Below are positions 1 to 44,475 of a stretch of 44,475 bases of DNA, piece after piece. A program made the position numbers and the translations under genes. The notes beneath the pieces were generated by a model. It was not told the origin of the DNA. It ran no database searches and saw nothing but the letters and a program-made list of their open reading frames with translations. Every line of letters starts with the position of its first letter. Position 1 is the stretch's first letter. The stretch is taken from assembly GCA_009785615.1 (NCBI GenBank), contig WQVX01000004.1, forward strand, positions 1 through 44,475. Reading direction: 5' to 3'. This stretch comes from Defluviitaleaceae bacterium. GTDB taxonomy: Bacteria > Bacillota > Clostridia > Lachnospirales > WQUN01.

Positions 1-482
1 TATCCTAAAGCTGAATTTATGCGCGTGAGTGATTATGACGAACTTTGTCATTATCCCTACGCGCTTTTATTATTTGTTGGATTTTCATTCCCCCTCCCCC
101 TACTTTTTACCTATAAATGAAAATGAAACCCCCCTTTCATTCAGAGCTTGCCCACCCACCCATCCTCCCCCGGGGATCGTAACAAAAATGTATTAATGTA
201 GTATATTCGTGTCGGATTTGCTCCTTTTCTTAGGCACGAAAGTAACATCCGGGCAGGCTCTCGTTTGAAGAGGGCATATCAAAAGCTTGTGCGCAACCGG
301 TCTCGCAATTGTACCCGGTTGAACGAATACGATAGTCGAGTTTTAGTGAGTTTAATCACGTTTTTGATGATTGAACTTATTTTTTTGGGGAAAACTTGAG
401 TCCACTAATTATTCGTATAGCTTTCCAATATTTCGGCAATAATAGAAATGTGTAGCAAAATATAGGACAGGAGCCGTTTAAT
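1..482. other. Non-coding, C-rich and structured stretch at the window start
   Basis: I see no convincing gene here. Reading frame 1 is open from the window edge to a stop at 118-120 (39 codons) but resembles nothing I know. Positions 90-175 contain several C runs, so the minus strand has G runs; at 151-171 they fit a G-quadruplex pattern. Positions 256-274 can form a 6-bp hairpin (GCTCTC with GAGGGC). I could not match any riboswitch class. Positions 294-399 are repeat copy A, described separately. The 5' region of the next gene occupies the rest. Confidence 0.5.
294..399 (+). repeat. Two-hairpin intergenic repeat, copy A
   Basis: This is a 106-bp element with a near-identical partner at 13519-13623. 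Hairpin 1 pairs CAACCGG (294-300) with CCGGTTG (315-321) around a loop beginning TCTCGCAATTG. Hairpin 2 pairs AGTTTAATCA (349-358) with TGATTGAACT (368-377) and is followed by seven T residues, like an intrinsic terminator. Both copies end in AAAACTTGA. By eye the two copies differ at about a dozen positions, and several differences keep the pairing. Hairpin 1 also occurs alone at 867-895 (minus) and 29786-29812 (plus). Confidence 0.75.
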
Positions 483-842
483 ATGGTAAAAAAAGAGAGG
501 GTTATACTTATAAAAGGAGATTCATCCAAATGGTACGAACAAGCAATTTTTATTGTTAACCAAAATACTCCGCCGGAAAAGATCCCTATGGATTTTGTTG
601 CAGAAGCGGAGAGTATAATCAACAATTACATCAAAAAAAGTACCGGTCGCCAAGCTAACGGTACAAATGTTGGTATAGCTTATTCTTCACCTAAATCCGG
701 AGCAAATAATCATGCAAAAAAGATACCAAAAAAATCCGGCAGGTCAGCAAAAAATAGACAGTTTGATTTTATCTTAAATACCATCTTAGTTTTAGGTTGC
801 TTTTTTATAATTGCAGCATTGATGTGGGGGCTGTTTTTATAG
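483..842 (+). CDS. Small C-terminally anchored membrane protein of unknown function (119 aa)
   Basis: I do not recognise the family. The start is supported by CAGGAG upstream of the ATG at 483. The N-terminal 50 residues look like a folded soluble segment (ILIKGDSSKWYEQAIFIV near residues 8-25). Residues about 55-93 are polar, basic and probably flexible. Residues about 95-118 form one strongly hydrophobic helix ending at the C-terminus, so it is probably a tail-anchored membrane protein facing the cytosol. It stands alone: repeat copy A lies upstream, and hairpin copy C plus a bidirectional terminator lie downstream, before the convergent glgA. The composition looks like a real gene, and the overlapping minus-strand frames are shadows. 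Confidence 0.8.
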   Translation: MVKKERVILIKGDSSKWYEQAIFIVNQNTPPEKIPMDFVAEAESIINNYIKKSTGRQANGTNVGIAYSSPKSGANNHAKKIPKKSGRSAKNRQFDFILNTILVLGCFFIIAALMWGLFL

Positions 843-866
843 GAAAGTTTAATGTGAAAGCTGTAT

Positions 867-895
867 CCAACCGGTGACAAAATGAGACCGATTGG
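867..895 (-). repeat. GGTCTC hairpin repeat, copy C
   Basis: On the minus strand this reads as a 9-bp stem, CCAATCGGT with ACCGGTTGG, around an 11-nt loop CTCATTTTGTC. The one non-Watson-Crick position is a U-G pair on the minus strand but would be a C-A mismatch on the plus strand. That makes minus the likely sense orientation. It lies 24 bp after the stop of the 483-842 gene. Confidence 0.65.
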
Positions 896-920
896 CCGCC
901 ATTCAAAATCAAAAAAAGAC

Positions 921-960
921 AAAAAAAGAGGCTGTTCAAGTTTGAACTGCCTCTTTTTTT
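921..960. terminator. Bidirectional intrinsic terminator
   Basis: AAAAAAAGAGGC (921-932) pairs with GCCTCTTTTTTT (949-960). An inner GTTCAA/TTGAAC stem is separated from the outer stem by one T-T mismatch. The A and T runs on either side let it end transcripts from both the 483-842 gene and the convergent glgA. Confidence 0.85.
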
Positions 961-966
961 GTCTGT

Positions 967-2415
967 CTATTGTTCAGATTTAAGCCACCGGTACAGCTCT
1001 ACATATTCTTTTGCAGATTTATTCCAAGAAAAATCTTGAGACATTGCATTTTTTACAATAAAAGGCCAGTGAGGAGTTCTGTAGTAGCCAAGTGCTTGGT
1101 CAATAGCCCACATTAGGCCACTTGCTACAAAATCTTCAAATATAAATCCATTGCCTTCAAAGGTATTTCCATTATAATGCTGAACTGTATCTGCAAGCCC
1201 CCCTGTTTTTCTAACTATAGGGATGGTTCCGTATCGCATTGCAAACATTTGCCCTAATCCACAGGGTTCGTATATTGATGGCATAAGAAAAATATCTGAT
1301 CCCGAATATATACGCTGTGCTAATTGGTCATCAAATGTAATTTGTGTACTTAACTTTTCCGGATATCTCCAAGCAAAATTTCTAAATAATTCCTCGTATC
1401 TACCTTCCCCTGTTCCTAATACTACCATTTGTAAATCTTTTGCCATTAGCTCTTCCAAAATTATGGAAACAATGTCAAAACCTTTTTGGTCGGCCAGTCG
1501 GGATATAACACCTATCATAGGTACATCCCATTGGGGCAACCCTAAAAGATTTTGAAGCTGACGCTTATTTTCTCGTTTATTTTCTATAACATTATTAATA
1601 TCGTAGTTTACAAATAACCTGGGATCTGTAGCAGGATTATTGTGTTCTGTGTCTATACCATTTAAAATTCCAAAAAGACGCTTGTCGTGCTCTCCACGTT
1701 TACGTAAAAGCCCTTCCATGCCATATCCGTAAGAAGGAGTTTGTATTTCTTGAGCATAGGTATCACTAACGGTGCTAACAGCATCGCTATGTATAAGCCC
1801 TGCTTTTAACAAACTTATATTTCCAAAAAACTCAAGGTCGCCATTGGTAAAATATCCATCATTAAGACCTATTGACCACAAGGTTTCTCTGCCAAATACA
1901 CCTTGATAATTTAGATTGTGTATAGTAAAAAGACTCTTCATATTTTCGTAAAAGGTAAAGCCACGGTATATATCTCTTAAATAGGTGCAGCCTAATCCGG
2001 TTTGCCAGTCATTAAAATGGATTATATCAGGCTTAAAATCCACACGAGATAAAAATTCTATTGATATTTTTGAAAAAAAGGCGAAACGTTCATAATCGTC
2101 TCCAAAACCATAGTATCCATCTCGCCCAAAATAATAGTCATTTTCTATCATATATACTTGAACATCTTCCGGATTTTTAGGCAAAATTGTATAGATAGAC
2201 GCACCCTGGGTACGCCAGGACAAATGTCCCGTTAAGGAATCTAAATATGTTATACCTTCTAAACGAGATTCAGGTATGTTTCCATATTTAGGAAAAACCA
2301 CACGTGCATCTACCCCCAGAGCTTTTAACGCTTTTGGCAGAGAGCCGGCTACATCACCAAGCCCACCACTTTGAGAATATGGTTTCACTTCTGATGCCAC
2401 AATTAGTACTTTCAA
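967..2415 (-). CDS. glgA: Glycogen synthase GlgA (GT5), with Gln replacing the KxGGL lysine
   Basis: It transfers glucose from ADP-glucose (by family) to the non-reducing end of alpha-1,4-glucan in the cytosol. I chose a TTG start at 2415 because AAAGGAG lies 7 nt upstream. A GTG at 2433 would add six residues but has its AGGAA directly against the codon. The resulting 482 aa is the normal family length. The N-terminal GT5 signature reads Q15-SGGLGDVAG. The C-terminal repeat of the motif, KTGGL, is at about residue 403, and the catalytic-region E-PCGLGQ is at about 383-389. The oddity is residue 15: E. coli GlgA has K15 (KTGGL), implicated in ADP-glucose binding, and here it is Gln. No glgB, glgC, glgD or glgP is in the window. 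It is transcribed divergently from the cohesin/dockerin gene. Confidence 0.95.
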   Translation of the reverse strand: MKVLIVASEVKPYSQSGGLGDVAGSLPKALKALGVDARVVFPKYGNIPESRLEGITYLDSLTGHLSWRTQGASIYTILPKNPEDVQVYMIENDYYFGRDGYYGFGDDYERFAFFSKISIEFLSRVDFKPDIIHFNDWQTGLGCTYLRDIYRGFTFYENMKSLFTIHNLNYQGVFGRETLWSIGLNDGYFTNGDLEFFGNISLLKAGLIHSDAVSTVSDTYAQEIQTPSYGYGMEGLLRKRGEHDKRLFGILNGIDTEHNNPATDPRLFVNYDINNVIENKRENKRQLQNLLGLPQWDVPMIGVISRLADQKGFDIVSIILEELMAKDLQMVVLGTGEGRYEELFRNFAWRYPEKLSTQITFDDQLAQRIYSGSDIFLMPSIYEPCGLGQMFAMRYGTIPIVRKTGGLADTVQHYNGNTFEGNGFIFEDFVASGLMWAIDQALGYYRTPHWPFIVKNAMSQDFSWNKSAKEYVELYRWLKSEQ

Positions 2416-2481
2416 ACTATTCACTCCTTTCACCTTCCTTAGTTGTATGATATTACGAATTGTTTAGGTTGTAAAGGTAAA

Positions 2482-2662
2482 AGGAATATTCCTGAGGATA
2501 GAACCTGAGAATATATATCAATATTTTTACAGGGGGATTAAGTAATTGCCAAAAAATGACGAAAATATTATTGTAACATACCTATTTATTGTAACATACA
2601 ATGCCGTGCAAGCTGTTTCCGCCAACAGTATAGGTATTGTTCGACAAGCTTTACACTATAAT
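2482..2662 (+). promoter_or_regulatory. Divergent regulatory region between glgA and the surface-protein gene
   Basis: The region holds a perfect 12-bp palindrome AGGAATATTCCT (2482-2493) and a 14-bp direct repeat TTATTGTAACATAC (2568-2581 and 2586-2599, period 18 bp). It also holds a consensus -10 box TATAAT (2657-2662); the matching -35 is weak (TATTGT, 2635-2640, 16-bp spacer). A start from this -10 box would give an RNA beginning near 2669, which fits the downstream ATG at 2702 rather than the TTG at 2546. The repeats could be operators, but no protein can be named. Confidence 0.4.
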
Positions 2663-2701
2663 CTGTTACTTTTTAAGAATTGGAAAGGGGTACGACTGTT
2701 T

Positions 2702-5700
2702 ATGCAAAAAACAGCAAAGCGTCTGTTGGCTTACATCTTAGCCTTTGCTTTAACTTTTGCCAACGTATCCACTGTTATGGCAACGTATTATGTAAGCTAT
2801 ACAGAAGACGGGATCATTACAGATGGAGAGGAGAATGTAGAAAGCAGTACTAACGAAACAAACTTGGGAGATGATGATTCTGTTGAATCTGAAGTCAGTT
2901 CTGAATCTGAGACTGAATCTGAATTTGAGCCGGAAATTAATGATCAAAACACTGGTGAAGAGGATGAAAAAGACTCAAGCGAGAGCAATCCGCCCACAGA
3001 AGAATCTGAAAACGACTATGCAAATTCTGAAGATGACAGTAAATCTTCAGATGATGAATGTCTAAATGATGATTCTACGGAGTCTGATTCTGATTTAGAG
3101 CAAGATTCTAACTTTGAAGATTCTAATCCTGAATCTAATCTTGATTATGAGCCTGATTTAGACGTTGAAGATCAAGATACCGGTGAAGAGGGTATTAATG
3201 AAGATGTCGATGATGATTCATATGAGTATGATTCGGAAGAGGAATATTTAGAAGAAGATTCAGAAAAAGAAGAGGAAAACAAAAACGACAATGATGAATA
3301 TGATTACGAGTATCCATGCGAAGAATATGAGTATGAATGCGAAGAGTACGACTATGAAGAATATGACTATGAAGAAGAACTCATTCTTTTTGAGCCTTTC
3401 CTTTTTGAACCTTTCATCACACAAACGGCTTCTACAGCAGCAGAATTGCAGACTCATTTAAACGACTCAAGTGTTACCAACATTACTATTATCGGAAGTT
3501 TTACTGTGAATGACGCGATTAATGTAAATCGCAGTGTTACACTTTCGGGTGATGGGACAATAACATTTGGTGCAGCACTTGCTCGCTTTAATGTTAACAC
3601 TGCTGCCGGGCACTTGATACTTGACGGGCCAACAATTAGCAGAAACGCGAATGTTGGTAATACTTCCTTTGCTGTTAATCTTAACAGCAATGCACGGTTT
3701 ACTTTGCAAAGTGGTAGTATCAGAAATCATCATCATGGTATAAATGTGGCTTCCGGGCAAACTAATGCAAGAGTATACCTTAATGGTGGTTTTGTTGAAA
3801 ATAACAGAGCCGGCGGCGTTAGTTTAAACCAAAACAATTTCATTACAATGAACCCCGGTGCAGTTGTAAGAAATAACGGGACAATCCCTGCTACCGGTTT
3901 CACAAGTACCGGCGGTATTTTCTTAAACGGTGGCGGAACTTTCACTATGAATGGAGGCGAAATCTCCAATAATAGAAGCACCAATAATGGCGGCGGAGTT
4001 ATGATTGGTGTTAATGTAACAGGAAGTCCGGGAGTTTTTAGAATGCACAGTGGCAGTATTACCGGCAATCGGGCTGTAAACCACGGTGGCGGAGTTATGA
4101 CCAGCAATGGAACTTTTAGAATGTATGGCGGTAGTATTACCAATAACCAAGCAGTTAATGGTGGTGCTATAAGTGTAACAGCAGGTAATATTGCCCACCT
4201 AAGTAATGTGCATATAGTTCCAAGTGCGCATTTTTCCGGCAATACTGCTTCTGCTTTAAGATTAAATGATTACTTATTTAATTTGCACACCCAAATACGC
4301 CCGGGTACATCAAGTTCAGGAGCGCATATTTTTAACAATCATGACCTTTTTGTTACCTCACCTCCTGCAACTCCACCAACAGAACCGGAAATAACAGCTT
4401 ACAATGCGCCAAATGGTACAGTTGGAACCAACTACAGCTTCAATTTTGCAGCAACCGGGCATCCAATACCTACATGGTCATTTGTTGGTACTTTACCGGA
4501 TGGATTAACGCTTAATGCAGCGGGACTTCTTTCAGGTACACCAACAACAGCCGGAACCTTTGATTTTACAGTTACAGCTACAAACTCGGAAGGCAGTGAT
4601 AGCCAAGCAATAACTATTGTGATAGCTAATCCGCCCGGGATGCCTATAATAACAGAATACGATGCGCCAAATGGTTTTGTGGGTATTAGTTATAGCTTTA
4701 CGTTTGAGGCAACAGGCTATCCAAATCCTACGTTTTCAATTGCATCCGGTACTTTACCATTTGGTCTATCCCTTGCACCCGGAGGTATTCTTTCCGGAAC
4801 GCCAACAACAGCCGGAACCTTCAACTTTACAGTTACAGCTACAAATTCAGAGGGCAATGATAGCCGGGCAATAACTATTGTGATAGCTCCTGCACCTGCT
4901 GTTATAGTTTCTGCTTATGCATCGCCGGCTCTTAGCGGTTTAAGAGGAACTTATGTAGATGTGCCAATAAACATGGTTACTAACGCCGGCTTGAGTATGT
5001 TAAGGCTTCACCTTGTTTATGATTCTGCAACATTGGAAAAAGTTAGTGTTACAAACAATATTGCTAATCCTATGCAGTTGACTCCTGTACATCATACCCC
5101 CGGTAATCCTCTAACTATGTTATTTGACATGGCAAATCCAATGGCTTATACAGACTACACAGGCTCTTTTGCAACTGTTAGATTCAGAATTAGAGATGAC
5201 GCGCCATTTGGAGTCTCAAATATTACATTATCTCATGATAATGCTTATATCACGAGTATGATGCCACCTTTTGTAATCAATATTAACGCCAATGTTGCAA
5301 CTATTAACGGTTCCGTTGAGGTCTTAAATTTTATATCCGGTGATATTAATGGTGATGGTGTAGTAAGTGGTGCAGATCTGCTTTTGCTAAGGTTTTATCT
5401 TGCAGGATTTCCCGGCATTACAATTAACCATACAGTAGCAAATGTTACAGGGAGTGGTACTGTAAGTCTTGCTGATGTAGTAAGGCTAAGAAATTATCTT
5501 GCGGGGCACCCGGTTATACTAGGTTCGTCTATATCAATTTATAATGCACCTATGCCATTTAGTGCTTTTGCAGCTTCTTCAACCTCTGCTGTAATTTCTG
5601 CACCTGAAAATGCCTCTCCCGGTGATTACATTGATGTAGTTGTCAGAATGGATGAAAATGAAGGACTAAGCGCATTAAGCCTGCGCCTTGGCTATGATTC

Positions 5701-7072
5701 ATCGGCATTAGAAAGAGTCAGCGTTACATCAACCGGTATCATGCAATTGCCTGTATCGCCGCCTGCAAATCAAAATCCCATTATTATGAACTTTGAAATG
5801 GCAAATTCTCTGCACTCCACAACATACACAGGGGATTTTGCAACTATTCGGTTTAGGGTGCTTGAGAATGCAACAGCAGGAATCACATCAATTACATTAT
5901 ATTCAGCTCATGCATACAGAGTTGAAAACTTGCATGAAGTGTCACTTAATGTTGGAGCTACTGATGGTTATGTCAATATTATCAGCAGTCAGGATGTAAT
6001 TGATCCAACCGATCCTATAGATCCTACTGATCCTGTAGACCCTACTGACCCAAGTGATCCAACCGATCCTATAGACCCTACTGATCCAAGTGATCCAAGT
6101 GATCCTACTGATCCTGTAGACCCTACTGACCCAAGTGATCCAACCGATCCTATAGATCCTACTGATCCAAGTGATCCTACCGATCCTGTAGATCCCACTG
6201 ACCCAAGTGATCCTGGCTCTACAAATCCAATTAATCCACCTACCACGACTCCATCATTCAACAATGCAGGTAATAACAATGTTAATAATTGGACACAAAC
6301 ACTACGAAGCATCCGTAGGCCAACATCTCCACCGAGAGTTATAACAGCCGCCATTATTGGAGAATCTTCCGTTACTGTAGAAAATGAGCTGTTCAACTTA
6401 CTTGAGCAAGAAACGGATTTGGAAATTGTAGTAGAAGGTTCTTCCATTACAATTCCTCATGAGCTTCTGATGGATCTTGCAGATAATGGAAGTACGGGAG
6501 AATTAAAGGTAGAATTGACCGTAACACCGGATTATGAGGAAACAAACAACTTCTTAGTGGTAGAAGCCGGTATTACCATAGACGGCAACATCATTGAAGA
6601 AACGGCTGTTGCCTTTACTGTGGCGGTATCTTTAGGTGACTTTGACCTTGAAGGGATTAACACCTATAGAATAACTGCTATGCTGGAGGATGGCACTATA
6701 ATAGGCGGTAGATTGGATTCAGAGACAGGCTTATTTATCTTTGAAGCCCAAGGCTTTGGAAAATTCATTATCGCTTATGTTGAAAGTCTTACAAGGCTTT
6801 CAATACAGTTGGAATCCTATGACATAATTGATTTAGCCAAAAATGTTTTACCACAAACCATGGATGTATTACCTATCATTCAAAATGACAACATTCTTCT
6901 ACCCATATATTTTGTGGCTAATGCGTTAGATGCTGACATAAACCGGATGTTTGATGTAGAGTATACTACATTAAATTACAGAAAAATGGTTCCATTAGAG
7001 TTTATTAACGCATACTTTGGAGCAATTGTAGTTTGGGATGAAGCTGAAATGAGTATTGAAATTATCAAGTAA
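2702..7072 (+). CDS. Large secreted acidic protein with beta-helix-like, He_PIG-like, two cohesin-like and one dockerin-like domain
   Basis: The ATG at 2702 follows GGAAAGGGG and opens a clear signal peptide (residues 1-27, ending STVMA). An earlier TTG at 2546 also has an AGGGGG site but would put 52 residues before the signal peptide. Regions in order: acidic Glu/Asp/Ser/Tyr-rich segment (about 34-235); Asn/Gly-rich beta-helix-like repeats (243-547); two He_PIG-like Ig domains, nearly identical in DNA (562-643, 647-729); cohesin-like domain (732-875); dockerin-like segment with an intact DINGDGVVSGAD loop and a degenerate second loop (878-940); second cohesin-like domain (963-1097); DPTDP-type linker (1099-1170); and a beta-rich tail ending in a copper-amine-oxidase-N-like (CAO-like) stalk domain (1377-1456). 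It is probably a cell-surface or matrix scaffold. Domain names rest on motif reading. A terminator follows at 7094. Confidence 0.88.
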   Translation: MQKTAKRLLAYILAFALTFANVSTVMATYYVSYTEDGIITDGEENVESSTNETNLGDDDSVESEVSSESETESEFEPEINDQNTGEEDEKDSSESNPPTEESENDYANSEDDSKSSDDECLNDDSTESDSDLEQDSNFEDSNPESNLDYEPDLDVEDQDTGEEGINEDVDDDSYEYDSEEEYLEEDSEKEEENKNDNDEYDYEYPCEEYEYECEEYDYEEYDYEEELILFEPFLFEPFITQTASTAAELQTHLNDSSVTNITIIGSFTVNDAINVNRSVTLSGDGTITFGAALARFNVNTAAGHLILDGPTISRNANVGNTSFAVNLNSNARFTLQSGSIRNHHHGINVASGQTNARVYLNGGFVENNRAGGVSLNQNNFITMNPGAVVRNNGTIPATGFTSTGGIFLNGGGTFTMNGGEISNNRSTNNGGGVMIGVNVTGSPGVFRMHSGSITGNRAVNHGGGVMTSNGTFRMYGGSITNNQAVNGGAISVTAGNIAHLSNVHIVPSAHFSGNTASALRLNDYLFNLHTQIRPGTSSSGAHIFNNHDLFVTSPPATPPTEPEITAYNAPNGTVGTNYSFNFAATGHPIPTWSFVGTLPDGLTLNAAGLLSGTPTTAGTFDFTVTATNSEGSDSQAITIVIANPPGMPIITEYDAPNGFVGISYSFTFEATGYPNPTFSIASGTLPFGLSLAPGGILSGTPTTAGTFNFTVTATNSEGNDSRAITIVIAPAPAVIVSAYASPALSGLRGTYVDVPINMVTNAGLSMLRLHLVYDSATLEKVSVTNNIANPMQLTPVHHTPGNPLTMLFDMANPMAYTDYTGSFATVRFRIRDDAPFGVSNITLSHDNAYITSMMPPFVININANVATINGSVEVLNFISGDINGDGVVSGADLLLLRFYLAGFPGITINHTVANVTGSGTVSLADVVRLRNYLAGHPVILGSSISIYNAPMPFSAFAASSTSAVISAPENASPGDYIDVVVRMDENEGLSALSLRLGYDSSALERVSVTSTGIMQLPVSPPANQNPIIMNFEMANSLHSTTYTGDFATIRFRVLENATAGITSITLYSAHAYRVENLHEVSLNVGATDGYVNIISSQDVIDPTDPIDPTDPVDPTDPSDPTDPIDPTDPSDPSDPTDPVDPTDPSDPTDPIDPTDPSDPTDPVDPTDPSDPGSTNPINPPTTTPSFNNAGNNNVNNWTQTLRSIRRPTSPPRVITAAIIGESSVTVENELFNLLEQETDLEIVVEGSSITIPHELLMDLADNGSTGELKVELTVTPDYEETNNFLVVEAGITIDGNIIEETAVAFTVAVSLGDFDLEGINTYRITAMLEDGTIIGGRLDSETGLFIFEAQGFGKFIIAYVESLTRLSIQLESYDIIDLAKNVLPQTMDVLPIIQNDNILLPIYFVANALDADINRMFDVEYTTLNYRKMVPLEFINAYFGAIVVWDEAEMSIEIIK

Positions 7073-7186: not shown

Positions 7187-8626
7187 CTAAGTTCCAAGTA
7201 AAATTTCAAAAAACGTCATCGGGACAAATGTCCGATCATTTCGGATCATTGGAGCAACTTCTAAAGTTCGGCCTTCAAAAGAACGCTGGCCTAATGCTAA
7301 AGCACTAAATACTTGTCCATCAGCATGTTGTAATGCAATGGATCGATTATGCTCGTTCCATTGTACAATAAAGCCCATAGATTCAGCTACTGTACGTAAT
7401 GGTACCATTGTAACATCGTTTTCTGTATAAAATTCGTTATATACCTGCGATAACGCATCAGACAAAGACAATCCTCTGCGTGGAATATAAGGTGTTGCCT
7501 GCTGATAACCATTATAGCCGTTATAACCATTAAGCCCATTGTAACCATTTAAAGAGCCATTACTATAACCATTAAGCCCATTGTAACCATTTAAAGAGCC
7601 ATTACTATAACCATTAAGCCCATTGTAACCGTTTAAATAGCCGTTGCTATAACCATTAAGTCCACTGTAACCATTTAAATAGCCGTTACTATAACCATTA
7701 AGTCCATTGTAACCATTTAAATAGCCGTTGCTATAACCATTAAATCCATTGTAGCCATTTAGTACATTATTTCCATTTAAATAACCATTTGCTGTATTAC
7801 TGCGGTTTAGAATAACAGTTTTTTGGGCTACAGCTTGCGCAGGATAACTTGGCATCATCATTGGAAACCACATCAATAGATCGGAACCTACCTCAATGTG
7901 ATCAACAGTTACGATATTGCGTGTAAGAAATGGTTCAATCCGGCTATCACGTTCTATTGTCACCAGTAATGACCCACCCTGTATAGTTACAATAATTCCG
8001 TTTTCTACAGTCTCAATGGCTTCTACTTTACCAAATTGAGGCGGAAAAGCATCTTCTTGCATATTGCCGATTACAAGCAAAGCATTACCCTGTGGAGGCT
8101 CACTTAATACAAGAGTCGGCCCATAATAAACTATCACACGGTTATTGTTGCGCTCAGATAAAGTTAATGGTTGCCCGGTAGTACCATCCACAATATAAGT
8201 TTCCGGCGAAATATTAAGAACTATCCGATTTTCGCCAACACTAGAAACAACTTCTATTGTGTTATCTGTCTCATTTTCTATATATCCATCAATAGAAACC
8301 GACAGTGGAGCTAAAGACACGCCATTTTCATAAGCGTTGTATGATTCATTTGCATTGTATGCTCCATTGGTACTATACGTTTCGTTGGCATTATATGATC
8401 CGTTGTTGCTATAAATTCCATTGGTACTATATGATTCATTGTTGTTATAAACTCCATTGGTGTTATAAGCTTCATTAGTATTATATTCCCCATTACTGTT
8501 GTATTCTCCGGTGCTATATCCATCATTGGTACTATAATCTTCACTGGTACTATACTCTTCGGCAGCAAATGCAGGAATAGCTACTGCAAAAACTGCCAAA
8601 ACCAGCAACGTAAAAAATTTCTTCAT
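7187..8626 (-). CDS. Secreted Asn/Gly/Tyr repeat protein with a C-terminal CAO-like domain
   Basis: The ATG at 8626 has AAGGAAGGG 9 nt upstream and starts a typical signal peptide (MKKFFTLLVLAVFAVAI, cleavage after AFA). An in-frame ATG at 8659 would only lengthen the leader. The mature protein (479 aa precursor) has Tyr/Asn/Ser-rich degenerate repeats (about residues 23-99), a globular beta-rich middle, then a 14-residue repeat of the type NGYNGLNGYSNGYL in about five copies (about 279-376, 42-bp DNA period). It ends in a copper-amine-oxidase-N-like domain (about 379-479; MVPLRTVAESMGF and RNDRTFVPMTFFE are typical). These domains usually decorate secreted or wall proteins of Clostridia. The neighbouring cohesin protein ends in a related domain. 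The exact role is unknown. Confidence 0.88.
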   Translation of the reverse strand: MKKFFTLLVLAVFAVAIPAFAAEEYSTSEDYSTNDGYSTGEYNSNGEYNTNEAYNTNGVYNNNESYSTNGIYSNNGSYNANETYSTNGAYNANESYNAYENGVSLAPLSVSIDGYIENETDNTIEVVSSVGENRIVLNISPETYIVDGTTGQPLTLSERNNNRVIVYYGPTLVLSEPPQGNALLVIGNMQEDAFPPQFGKVEAIETVENGIIVTIQGGSLLVTIERDSRIEPFLTRNIVTVDHIEVGSDLLMWFPMMMPSYPAQAVAQKTVILNRSNTANGYLNGNNVLNGYNGFNGYSNGYLNGYNGLNGYSNGYLNGYSGLNGYSNGYLNGYNGLNGYSNGSLNGYNGLNGYSNGSLNGYNGLNGYNGYNGYQQATPYIPRRGLSLSDALSQVYNEFYTENDVTMVPLRTVAESMGFIVQWNEHNRSIALQHADGQVFSALALGQRSFEGRTLEVAPMIRNDRTFVPMTFFEILLGT

Positions 8627-8645
8627 CTTAAATATCCCTTCCTTA

Positions 8646-8683
8646 CATATAGCAAACATACTTTGTTAATAAGACGTTTGCTA
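8646..8683 (-). promoter_or_regulatory. 10-bp inverted repeat just upstream of the repeat-protein RBS
   Basis: TATAGCAAAC (8646-8655) and GTTTGCTATA (8674-8683) are a perfect inverted repeat around 18 bp. On the minus strand it ends 3-4 nt before the AAGGAAGGG ribosome binding site of the gene starting at 8626. It could be an operator or an mRNA hairpin affecting translation. Confidence 0.4.
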
Positions 8684-42141: not shown

Positions 42142-42517
42142 ATGCGAGCATCCTTTCTGGATGATTTTAGCATAGATATTGCAAGATTGCAAAAATATAT
42201 GGAAAACTTCATGAGAGTAAAGTCCTAAAGGTAAAAGCAGGTATATGAATACAATAAAAATCCCGCCGTAGCCTAAATATAATACAATGCGGCTTTTGCG
42301 GGATCCTATACTTGACTGTTTCAAAAGGAAATTCAGTTGGGGAGTGTGGCTCACCAACTGATCTTACAAGCCTCTGAATGCCTTTAAAATGGTACTTGGA
42401 AAATTTTGATGTGGTCTGTAAAGGACAAAACTGTCCCTTTAACTATACATATATTTAATGCTACAATCTCAACAAGTTAAATTTTAGAGAAAACAAGTTG
42501 AGAAAGGGGTAAAAATT
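42142..42517. other. Structured intergenic region between the flavodoxin gene and the peptide gene
   Basis: No ORF of note. There are two hairpins. ATCCCGC (42260-42266) pairs with GCGGGAT (42298-42304), with inner AGCC/GGCT; on the minus strand it is followed by TTTTTATT and so resembles an intrinsic terminator for the regulator or an attenuator for the flavodoxin gene. TCAGTTGG (42333-42340) pairs with CCAACTGA (42354-42361). The dyad and promoter of the peptide gene lie at 42420-42467. TCTCAAC (42468-42474) and GTTGAGA (42498-42504) flank the region just upstream of the peptide RBS. Confidence 0.5.
42420..42467 (+). promoter_or_regulatory. Candidate operator dyad and promoter of the peptide gene
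   Basis: A perfect dyad GGACA-AAAC-TGTCC (42423-42436) extends to AAAGGACA / TGTCCCTTT. It abuts a predicted promoter TTAACT (42439-42444), 17 bp, TACAAT (42462-42467). Its centre would be near -44, a position suited to an activator. An 18-bp sequence matching this one (opposite strand) at about 15 positions lies at 43783-43800, beside the regulator gene. Confidence 0.5.
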
Positions 42518-42676
42518 GTGAAAAAATGTATGATTAATCTAGTAATGTTGTTAGGTATTTTTGCTGTAGGTTTGGTTGGTGTATCAGAAATAGCAATTTC
42601 TTTAAACTACAGATATACCCCAAATGTATGTTTTGAAAACTTTCAACCATTTGATTTAGGTAAGGAGCAGATATGA
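42518..42676 (+). CDS. 52-residue secreted peptide precursor, candidate signalling peptide
   Basis: Starts with GTG at 42518, with GAAAGGGG (42502-42509) 8 nt upstream. The N-terminus has lysines (M-K-K-C), then a hydrophobic core (about residues 5-22) like a signal peptide, then a 28-residue hydrophilic tail with YRYTPNVCF and FDLGKEQI. Length and layout resemble Phr/PapR-type pro-peptides of RRNPP systems. It lies tail to tail with the XRE/TPR-like regulator, as in convergent rgg-shp pairs. The mature peptide cannot be predicted. The final codons hold AAGGAG, serving the next ORF. This is unrecognised and inferred from layout, not from homology. Confidence 0.65.
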   Translation: MKKCMINLVMLLGIFAVGLVGVSEIAISLNYRYTPNVCFENFQPFDLGKEQI

Positions 42677-42723
42677 GTGAGAATCTGATAGCTTTAGGTC
42701 AAAATTTCAAAATTATAAATTAA
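42673..42723 (+). CDS. 16-codon ORF overlapping the peptide gene
   Basis: The sequence MSENLIALGQNFKIIN follows a good AAGGAG 5 nt before the ATG. The ATG overlaps the preceding TGA in ATGA, a standard coupled layout. The 3' end overlaps the regulator's stop by 11 bp on the other strand. It has no leader. It may be a second, coupled peptide, or chance: the RBS-ATG coincidence is the only evidence. Confidence 0.35.
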   Translation: MSENLIALGQNFKIIN

Positions 42724-43717
42724 TTTGATATTTGGTAGCAACAATCGTTTTTACACGTGATGCCATTTCATTTCTTTTAAGAGAGATAAAAGTACTGTAT
42801 GAATGCTTGAAACCTTCAGCAGCACTCTCTTTATCGCCCATATAGTATAATGACTTTGCTCTGTTATAAAGCAACTTAGCAAAATTCTTGAAGTTTTTTA
42901 TGGATTCACAAAACTCAAGCCCTTCTTCGCAAACGTTAAACGCTTCCTTATAGCGTTTTTCGTCAATAAAACAATCTGATAGGTTGTAATAAGTAGTGGG
43001 TAAGAAATGGTTTCTTATCTCACTGCTTATTTTTTTGTTTTGCAATGATTTACACATTGCCTTAAAAATTCTTGTAGCAAGATAATTCTGGTTTAAATCA
43101 ATAAGTATAATTGCAATTAAATTTAAGATGCGATATTCATTTAACGAAAACATCCTATCAGATATTATCCCGTACTTAACTCTATTATCTTCAGATATAA
43201 CTGATGGAACTGTTATGCGTAGCGCACTATAAAGAACATCTAAAGAAGCTTGCAAGTTTTTGTGTAGGTTTCTTTGAAAAAAGCCATCACATAAAAGTAA
43301 TGCTTGCAGTATTTGAGGGTTTTTTGGGTCACAGTATTTTTGTTCTTTTAGCAATTCCAGATGCCGGCTTGCCTCTTGATAACGTTCATCAAAAAGTAAA
43401 TTGCAAATTTCTTCAAAACTATTCCGAAAGGTCAGCAGGTCTTGTCCTTCAACTAAGCTTTCAAACTCTGACATTGATACTCCAAATACTGATAAAAAAA
43501 ATTTAATTTCAAAAATAGATGGTGCAACTTTGCCTTGTTCAATCCGGCGAAGTGTTTTTGTTGAGCATATCGTTTCAGATGGAGTATCGCATTTGGTAAG
43601 CTCCCTCTGGCTTAGGCTTCTTTGTTGCCTAAGCTGTTTAATGGTTTCTCCAACTTTTACGTTATACATATCTTGCTCATTACCTAATGATTGCACATTG
43701 CTAATATTAGCATCCAT
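42713..43717 (-). CDS. XRE-family HTH regulator with helical TPR-like C-terminal half (RRNPP-like)
   Basis: 334 aa. An N-terminal HTH (about residues 20-90) shows VGETIKQLRQQRSLSQREL, then TLRRIEQGKVAPS. The rest is an all-helical repeat array; FIDEKRYKEAFNVCEEGLEF and LYYMGDKESAAEGFKHSYST fit TPR spacing. This domain order is that of PlcR/Rgg/PrgX-type cytosolic receptors that bind imported peptides. GGAGGTC precedes the ATG. A peptide gene lies tail to tail, and a secreted acidic protein is divergent. The peptide-binding role is inferred; other XRE-TPR regulators exist without peptides. A relatively long HTH insert (TKCDTPSETICSTKT) is notable. Confidence 0.85.
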   Translation of the reverse strand: MDANISNVQSLGNEQDMYNVKVGETIKQLRQQRSLSQRELTKCDTPSETICSTKTLRRIEQGKVAPSIFEIKFFLSVFGVSMSEFESLVEGQDLLTFRNSFEEICNLLFDERYQEASRHLELLKEQKYCDPKNPQILQALLLCDGFFQRNLHKNLQASLDVLYSALRITVPSVISEDNRVKYGIISDRMFSLNEYRILNLIAIILIDLNQNYLATRIFKAMCKSLQNKKISSEIRNHFLPTTYYNLSDCFIDEKRYKEAFNVCEEGLEFCESIKNFKNFAKLLYNRAKSLYYMGDKESAAEGFKHSYSTFISLKRNEMASRVKTIVATKYQINL

Positions 43718-43770: not shown

Positions 43771-43862
43771 ATTGTGCTTAAAAAAGGGACAATGTTGGCC
43801 GTATAACATGGGCAAGTACTATGATAACATATTATTGTGCTAAATGTTAGTATTAGTATAGT
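43771..43862 (+). promoter_or_regulatory. Divergent promoter region between regulator and acidic-repeat protein
   Basis: Plus-strand promoter of the acidic protein: TTGTGC (43835-43840), 16 bp, TATAGT (43857-43862). A 10-bp direct repeat ATTGTGCTWA occurs at 43771-43780 and 43834-43843, 63 bp apart (about six helical turns), the second overlapping the -35 box. A dyad variant GGACA-ATGT-TGGCC lies at 43787-43800. All are within the gap between the two divergent starts. Confidence 0.5.
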
Positions 43863-43888: not shown

Positions 43889-44475
43889 ATGAAAAGAAAG
43901 TTAGCACTGTTAGTGGCTCTCGTTTTGGTCTTTCAGTCGTTTGCGCCTATTATCGGAAACGGTACTTTTATTAGGGCATATGCTGGTAATTTTAATTATT
44001 CAATACCGGCAATTTCTGAGATGACAGTTCTTGAGCCGATGATTTCCGTCGAATTTGACGAAGAACCAGACGATCCGGGAGATGAGTCCGAGCCGAGCGA
44101 TGAGCATCCCGGCGAGGAAGAACCGGAAGATGAACATCCAAGCGAGGAAGAGCCTGAAGATGAACATCCAAGCGAGGAAGAGCCTGAAGAAGAGCATCCG
44201 AGCGAGGAAGAGTCGGAAGAAGAGCATCCTAGCGAGGAAGAGCCGGAAGATGAGTATCCCGGCGAGGAAGAACCGGAAGATGAGTATCCTAGCGAGGAAG
44301 AGCCGGAAGATGAGTATCCTAGCGAGGAAGAGCCGGAAGATGAACATCTAAACGAGGAAGAGCCGGAAGATGAGTATCCTAGCGAGGAAGAACCGGAAGA
44401 TGAACATCTAAGCGAGGAAGAACCGGAAGATGAGTATCCCGGCGAGGAAGAGCCGGAAGATGAGTATCCCGGCGA
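43889..44475 (+). CDS. Secreted protein with acidic 10-residue repeats (3' end outside window)
   Basis: The ATG at 43889 has GAAAGGAGAG upstream. A signal peptide (MKRKLALLVALVLVFQSFA) is followed by about 40 ordinary residues. From about residue 60 a 10-residue repeat of the type EEEPEDEYPS continues to the window end (30-bp DNA period, at least 12 copies, with H/Y and D/E variation). The ORF is open at 44475. It resembles the acidic N-terminal stretch of the 2702-7072 protein and may likewise lead to globular surface domains further on. It is divergent from the RRNPP-like regulator. Confidence 0.88.
   Translation, partial: MKRKLALLVALVLVFQSFAPIIGNGTFIRAYAGNFNYSIPAISEMTVLEPMISVEFDEEPDDPGDESEPSDEHPGEEEPEDEHPSEEEPEDEHPSEEEPEEEHPSEEESEEEHPSEEEPEDEYPGEEEPEDEYPSEEEPEDEYPSEEEPEDEHLNEEEPEDEYPSEEEPEDEHLSEEEPEDEYPGEEEPEDEYPG

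Follow-up and report, generated by a model that had tools for sequence, protein, structure and literature searches.

A candidate autoregulated RRNPP receptor–peptide pair in convergent arrangement in a Defluviitaleaceae genome

Introduction

Peptide quorum sensing is well studied in Bacillus and streptococci; in anaerobic Clostridia, the dominant bacteria of many guts, it has received little attention. In the PlcR/PapR system of the Bacillus cereus group, the receptor and pheromone genes are codirectional, PapR is a short precursor with an N-terminal signal, and the PlcR box has the consensus TATGNAANNNNTNCATA. The active PapR heptapeptide is ADLPFEF, in which Pro4, Glu6 and Phe7 are critical for PlcR activation (PMC6568020). 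In Bacillales systems, the receptor gene is followed immediately by the pheromone gene (PMC9765709). A second arrangement is found in Streptococcus pneumoniae, where the PlcR homologue TprA is usually a repressor that is released by PhrA, with the peptide gene on the opposite strand (PMC7595303; PMC5436883). LDVGKAD and VDLGLAD are given as the pneumococcal signals (PMC5436883).

Other receptors depart further from PlcR in their peptides or gene order. In group III Rgg/SHP (MutR) systems the peptide gene converges on the receptor gene and overlaps its 3′ end (PMC13361665); SHPs are very short and hydrophobic, and Rgg proteins are without recognisable TPR sequence (PMC9765709). ComR boxes have been searched for with the pattern AAAG-N(1,4)-GACA-N4-TGTCCTG-N20-TA (PMC4072589). 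Clostridium acetobutylicum possesses the RRNPP receptors Qsr with small precursors, Qsp, of 39-50 aa; these carry a conserved tail proline, and the active heptapeptide of QspB, AEPTWGW, lies inside a longer precursor (PMC7376267). RRNPP_detector lists 21 new clusters (PMC10075063). A search of the open-access literature joining RRNPP, quorum sensing and Lachnospiraceae found no paper.

Here we analyze a regulator gene and a small peptide gene facing it on contig WQVX01000004.1 of a Defluviitaleaceae bacterium (assembly GCA_009785615.1). The whole stretch of 44,475 nucleotides that was analyzed is referred to as the window. The host is presumably a gut bacterium related to termite-gut Clostridia; the closest matches to the window PNPase (80-82%) come from MAGs labelled Bacillota, Turicibacter sp. 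and Defluviitaleaceae. 'Lachnospirales-like' is used below as an order label taken from MAG names, with no tree behind it.

Results

A PlcR/TprA-like regulator

As an earlier note on the window had read from the translation, the minus-strand regulator combines an XRE-type HTH with helical repeats, and both HTH_3 and TPR_2 exceed their Pfam cut-offs. RNPP_C, which models the C-terminal part of RNPP proteins, falls below its curated cut-off (21.4 versus 26.5 bits, E 2e-4), and we therefore use the label 'PlcR/TprA-like' rather than 'a PlcR'. By its own single sequence the regulator matches PlcR weakly. When a profile of 18 relatives was compared with solved structures, PlcR (2qfc) was the first match at 4e-24, with HTH and TPR both aligned, the C-terminal half matching the PlcR TPR domain. 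PlcR scored 88.6 bits, versus ~47 for the next RRNPP regulators listed and ~35 for ComR, a ranking among solved structures; the likeness to TprA is one of description. All 18 alignment members match HTH_3, and 11 of the 18 match RNPP_C at an E value of 0.001 or better.

In the same profile alignment, Tyr244-Asn245 of the regulator fall onto Tyr200-Asn201 of PlcR, and an Asn is kept at the Asn245 position in 55 of 87 single-module homologues. In RapF, a residue of this class, an RNPP Asn, holds the peptide backbone in place (PMC3601957), and we infer that Asn245 would be the equivalent of RapF N227. A fold model from the single sequence is all-helical and too poor to be used (pLDDT 46).

A small peptide gene facing the regulator

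Tail to tail with the regulator, with 3′ ends 36 nt apart, lies a 52-codon ORF whose product, MKKCMINLVMLLGIFAVGLVGVSEIAISLNYRYTPNVCFENFQPFDLGKEQI, has two Lys, a hydrophobic stretch and a hydrophilic tail, so that the signal-like start and hydrophilic tail described in the earlier note are all present. To be called signal-like by our mechanical filter, an ORF must have 36-80 codons, a Shine-Dalgarno match of at least 4 nt, Lys/Arg close to the N-terminus, a hydrophobic stretch of 12 residues within the first 30, and a non-hydrophobic tail. The real 340-nt region passes, as do 28 of 4000 dinucleotide shuffles of that region and 4 of 520 tiles of the whole window. The ribosome-binding site, previously called strong, has 7 consecutive matches to the anti-Shine-Dalgarno complement, followed by a GTG start; the description is reasonable, if not an exact one. 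A search for homologues of the 52-aa peptide sequence detected none and gave noise only. The features of the locus are collected in Table 1.

Table 1. Coordinates of features in and around the regulator and peptide genes (window positions)
Feature	Position	Strand	Basis
Candidate operator 1, GGACAAAACTGTCCCTTT, ahead of the peptide gene -10	42423-42440	plus	exact match of GGNCANNNNTGTCCCTTT
Promoter-like sequence: weak -35 TTAACT, 17 nt, extended -10 TGC-TACAAT (-10 hexamer 42462-42467)	42439-42467	plus	consensus scan
Shine-Dalgarno GAGAAAGGGG of the peptide gene	42500-42509	plus	filter score 7
Predicted pheromone precursor gene, 52 aa, GTG start, signal-like N-terminus	42518-42676	plus	hydrophobicity and charge, mechanical filter
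Predicted active region QPFDLGKEQI, residues 43-52, with stop codon	42644-42676	plus	Pro-Phe enrichment; cf. PapR, PhrA
Terminator-like hairpin on the regulator strand, past the peptide gene	42257-42307	minus	RNA fold -21.4 kcal/mol, z -3.2, then U-rich stretch
Regulator ORF, 334 aa, HTH-TPR (PlcR/TprA-like), putative pheromone receptor and transcription regulator	42713-43717	minus	ATG start preceded by GGAGG
C-terminal TPR / RNPP_C-like region, residues 191-310	42788-43147	minus	Pfam RNPP_C 2e-4, TPR_12, TPR_2
Asn245 codon, part of the Tyr-Asn pair aligned with PlcR Tyr200-Asn201	42983-42985	minus	profile alignment
XRE-type HTH DNA-binding domain, residues 26-85	43463-43642	minus	Pfam HTH_3 over cut-off
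Candidate operator 2, GGCCAACATTGTCCCTTT, between the regulator and divergent gene 43889	43783-43800	minus	other exact match
Candidate target: secreted acidic-repeat protein gene, divergent from the regulator	43889-44475	plus	ORF open at contig end

Candidate control sites

An 18-nt dyad, GGnCA-N4-TGTCCCTTT (GGnCA-N4-TGTCC), occurs in one copy upstream of each of the two genes. The two copies, designated candidate operators 1 and 2, are identical at 15 of 18 positions, an identity reached by 4.4% of cross-locus upstream pairs. The pattern GGNCANNNNTGTCCCTTT has exactly two sites in the 3.29-Mb genome, both in the window; they are not independent proof, because the pattern was drawn from both copies, and the absence of further exact sites in the genome is informative. 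A one-mismatch search of the same 3.29 Mb added one site, inside a permease gene, and since the dyad search yielded only this and the two window sites, we propose no additional target. For the looser core GGACANNNNTGTCC a single extra site came up, where a coding region ends. Overall, the dyad common to both promoters is suggestive only. Across the family, shared upstream motifs do not exceed cross-locus pairs, and autoregulation via a shared site is therefore argued for the window alone.

Operator 1 is separated by 21 nt from the -10 hexamer TACAAT and overlaps the first bases of the -35-like hexamer, the promoter-like match being by itself no proof of function. Operator 2 and gene 43889 belong to one intergenic region, and that gene encodes a signal peptide followed by an EEPEDEYPSE-type acidic repeat that runs into the contig end, the remainder lying off the contig. 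A dyad upstream of each gene and an extended -10 before the peptide gene are in keeping with the earlier statement that the genes are bounded by their own regulatory sites. The terminator-like hairpin of Table 1 was not listed by a simple terminator scan, which covers loops of 3-8 nt only. As no other such hairpin was found in the regulator direction, the regulator transcript may extend this far; if it does terminate here, it would run through the peptide gene in antisense.

Comparison with described systems

The pneumococcal TprA/PhrA and TprA2/PhrA2 pairs share with the window a PlcR-homologous receptor, a Sec-type precursor encoded on the opposite strand and a short C-terminal signal. The likeness in gene order is one of opposite strands. 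These systems regulate a peptide-product locus, and the signals LDVGKAD and VDLGLAD resemble FDLGKEQ of the window. In contrast, phrA2 is grouped with ABC-transporter genes on its strand, whereas the window peptide gene stands alone, with a flavodoxin-like gene and the secreted-protein gene as neighbors. PlcR/PapR provides the best solved-structure match over both domains and a Pro-Phe within ADLPFEF. Unlike PlcR proper, with its codirectional and directly downstream pheromone gene, the window peptide gene is convergent, and the window dyad GGnCA-N4-TGTCC appears to differ from the PlcR box.

Group III Rgg/SHP resembles the window in its convergent peptide gene. The window differs in having a 52-aa Sec-like precursor with a hydrophilic tail and TPR_2 over the cut-off. 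With ComR/ComS the likeness is in the operator only: the window sequence reads AAAGGACA-AAAC-TGTCC, with the -10 following after ~25 nt, and has a core like GACA-N4-TGTC, a matter of few bases. The ComR box departs from it in what follows TGTCC and in its distance from the -10, and the window receptor is nearer PlcR. Qsr/Qsp are likewise clostridial receptors with small precursors, but Qsp tails share Leu, Pro and Trp, not Pro-Phe as in the window series; Qsr proteins have a predicted six to eight TPRs each, and Qsp ORFs are described as downstream of qsr. The AimR arbitrium system (phage, with aimX) was considered and set aside, as the window pair is flanked by ORFs of housekeeping type, judged from their translations. 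A pattern scan for viral relatives of the regulator found none, one unannotated fecal 'phage' contig having come up otherwise.

Recurrence among homologues

Homologues were gathered by regulator similarity alone, and the 73 with enough flank were counted. A small ORF passing the filter converges on the regulator 3′ end in 30 of them; other positions are rare (3 downstream codirectional, 1 upstream divergent, 0 upstream codirectional). As controls, unrelated genes from the same loci had a convergent passing ORF in 1 of 75 cases, and shuffles averaged 0.65. Because the filter had been written after some of the first loci were seen, it was run unchanged on a further 35 regulators, retrieved afterwards and drawn largely from other families of the order, affording 15 convergent, 0 codirectional and 2 upstream divergent ORFs. 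Over both sets, 45 of 108 regulators have a convergent passing ORF versus 3 with a codirectional one. Similar small ORFs thus do stand convergently beside homologous regulators, although the peptide sequences themselves are hypervariable; kind and position recur. The filter called no partner for the other 63 of 108. Some partners are missed through its strictness or through contig ends, and part of the 63 may be orphans or XRE-TPR regulators of another sort. Of 30 named genomes searched, 12 encode regulator homologues, as do 42 of 245 genomes of the order at a strict cut-off. Plasmid records gave no match.

Tandem receptors, with HTH-TPR-HTH-TPR in one chain, are represented in this genome by L003 (G000:C17:11971-13878) and elsewhere by ~30 homologues of 560-710 aa. 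Proteins of at least 560 aa have a convergent peptide gene in 18 of 31 cases, versus 25 of 81 for single-module proteins; for the tandem copy in this genome, the filter found no peptide gene. This genome also encodes a second receptor–peptide pair (L002/L040, G000:C160, 283-1376), with peptide MKKIIKRTSLFLLLAMAIVTTPIFGQEITCGSSGYVDVRPLDYKYNLPADE. The 6.8-kb contig that carries it has, by eye, an ABC transporter and a replication-initiator-like ORF, and is perhaps a small mobile replicon.

Peptide tails

Pro-Phe is the most enriched dipeptide tested in the 45 tails, with 12 observed against 3.2 expected (0/2000 shuffles), and the extended pattern PFx[ILVY] was observed 8 times versus 0.7 expected. 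Since the pattern was noticed before testing, the tail-pattern counts are descriptive, and the ranking of all dipeptides gives the fairer measure. Pro-Phe tails comprise QPFDLG of the window, TPFDIG, APFSIG, TPFCIL, NPFIIG, IPFDVA, IPFDCD, IPFCEI and others. The window tail, FENFQPFDLGKEQI, resembles both PapR ADLPFEF and pneumococcal PhrA LDVGKAD, short resemblances that may serve as a lead.

Surroundings of the peptide genes in relatives

A long inverted repeat (score at least 12) lies upstream of the peptide gene in 18 of 30 loci, compared with none of 90 shuffles, 3 of 30 regions upstream of regulators and 12 of 100 upstream of control genes; some of these control regions may coincide with the intergenic stretches of peptide genes. 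The repeats are locus-specific, score up to 31 and mostly end 48-75 nt before the peptide start codon (L002, L008, L011, L024, L048, L053, L054, L055, L067, L074 and others). These long palindromes were considered as operators or as terminators, and their U-run counts (5.2 versus 4.4 of 8) are too close to separate the two. The window dyad is much shorter than the palindromes of its relatives.

In 34 of 40 loci the peptide gene and the next ORF are divergent, mostly 150-260 nt apart. A scan of 35 such neighbors identified 7 radical-SAM enzymes similar to SPASM peptide maturases; many of the rest have a signal peptide at their N-terminus. Radical-SAM/SPASM maturases adjoin the peptide genes of L074, L080, L257, L265, L266 and L275 (the last two by eye), making these loci candidate quorum-controlled RiPP clusters. 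One of the convergent cases lies on a human fecal contig filed as a bacteriophage (L214, MT837704.1), where a 64-aa ORF overlaps the regulator stop. Within 1-5466 of this record are two radical-SAM genes on the other side of the pair, a separate 73-aa ORF that shares their strand, and an MFS-like transporter gene, and the locus looks like a bacterial RiPP cluster rather than phage.

Discussion

The regulator and the 52-aa peptide very probably form an autoregulated RRNPP quorum-sensing pair closest to the PlcR/TprA branch, a reading drawn from sequence comparison. The earlier note had proposed a receptor–pheromone pair of a type that it could not name. The pair is supported by the 45 of 108 convergent ORFs and by the PlcR match; the type can in fact be named, as PlcR/TprA-like. 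In the circuit that we propose, the 52-aa precursor would leave the cell through Sec and be processed to a short peptide around QPFDLGKEQ, which an oligopeptide permease would re-import. The genome has four OppA-type SBP_bac_5 matches over the cut-off, which do not imply peptide specificity. The peptide would then bind the concave face of the TPR domain and change the action of the regulator at the GGnCA-N4-TGTCC sites. Through operator 1 it would control its own gene, giving autoinduction, and operator 2 would serve the divergent secreted-protein gene 43889, the nearest candidate target.

The sign of this control bears on one alternative that uses the same parts. Activation is slightly favored over relief of repression because the center of operator 1 falls ~43 nt ahead of the probable transcript start and because the -35 is a weak one. 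Reversing the sign, such that the peptide relieves repression as in TprA/PhrA instead of promoting activation as in PlcR/PapR, gives a variant compatible with the quorum-sensing pair, and we place it somewhat short of an even chance. TprA, the relative closest in arrangement, offers the precedent, being a PlcR homologue that usually represses and has its peptide gene on the opposite strand; operator 1 lies over the first bases of the -35-like hexamer, and the window tail FDLGKEQ is like PhrA LDVGKAD. Yet an operator center near -43, counted from a putative transcript start, and a weak -35 suit an activator at least equally.

Other alternatives dispense with the peptide as ligand. The ORF could encode a real secreted or membrane micropeptide, such as a regulated toxin, a bacteriocin or a membrane peptide, and the high diversity of the peptide sequences and the radical-SAM peptide maturases beside several relatives are in keeping with this. 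We judge it unlikely, as the position of the ORF is tied to PlcR-type receptor homologues and the tails are short with a common Pro-Phe core; maturase clusters, moreover, can hold another small precursor, as L214 does in its separate 73-aa ORF. It is less probable still, and by a wide measure improbable, that the 52-codon ORF is a product of chance and the regulator an orphan XRE-TPR factor with its ligand elsewhere: such an ORF appears in just 28 of the 4000 shuffled regions and in 4 of the 520 tiles, and the convergent arrangement recurs in two homologue sets. The lack of any homologue found for the ORF, its GTG start and the 63 of 108 homologues without a called partner are what speaks for chance.

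If the quorum-sensing pair is considered with its relatives, the window may belong to a so far undescribed, order-wide convergent receptor–pheromone series in Lachnospirales-like gut Clostridia, with its own Pro-Phe code and tandem double receptors, and with the pheromone gene and a target (secreted protein or radical-SAM maturase) leading off in opposite directions from a control region that carries a palindrome. This wider proposal is tentative, its chances in our estimate falling just under even. Convergence alone is not new, since TprA/PhrA are oppositely oriented and group III Rgg/SHP are convergent, and the parts themselves are of known kind. What we rate as new is the order-wide convergent PlcR/TprA-like series, the Pro-Phe code, the tandem double receptors and the frequent radical-SAM and secreted-protein neighbors. 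Part of the window series may be among the 21 new clusters of RRNPP_detector.

The exported 52-aa peptide very probably reports to the regulator the number of relatives around. If this reading is true, dozens of candidate signal peptides would be readable from genomes and testable as synthetic peptides. Furthermore, several of these signals would point at radical-SAM peptide products, thereby offering a means of activating silent gut RiPP clusters.

Elsewhere in the window are two secreted ORFs, each of which seems to encode a repeat-rich surface protein: a large one at 2546-7072 with an acidic N-terminal region and DPTDPSDP repeats, and one at 7187-8659 with NGYNGLNGYSNGYL repeats.
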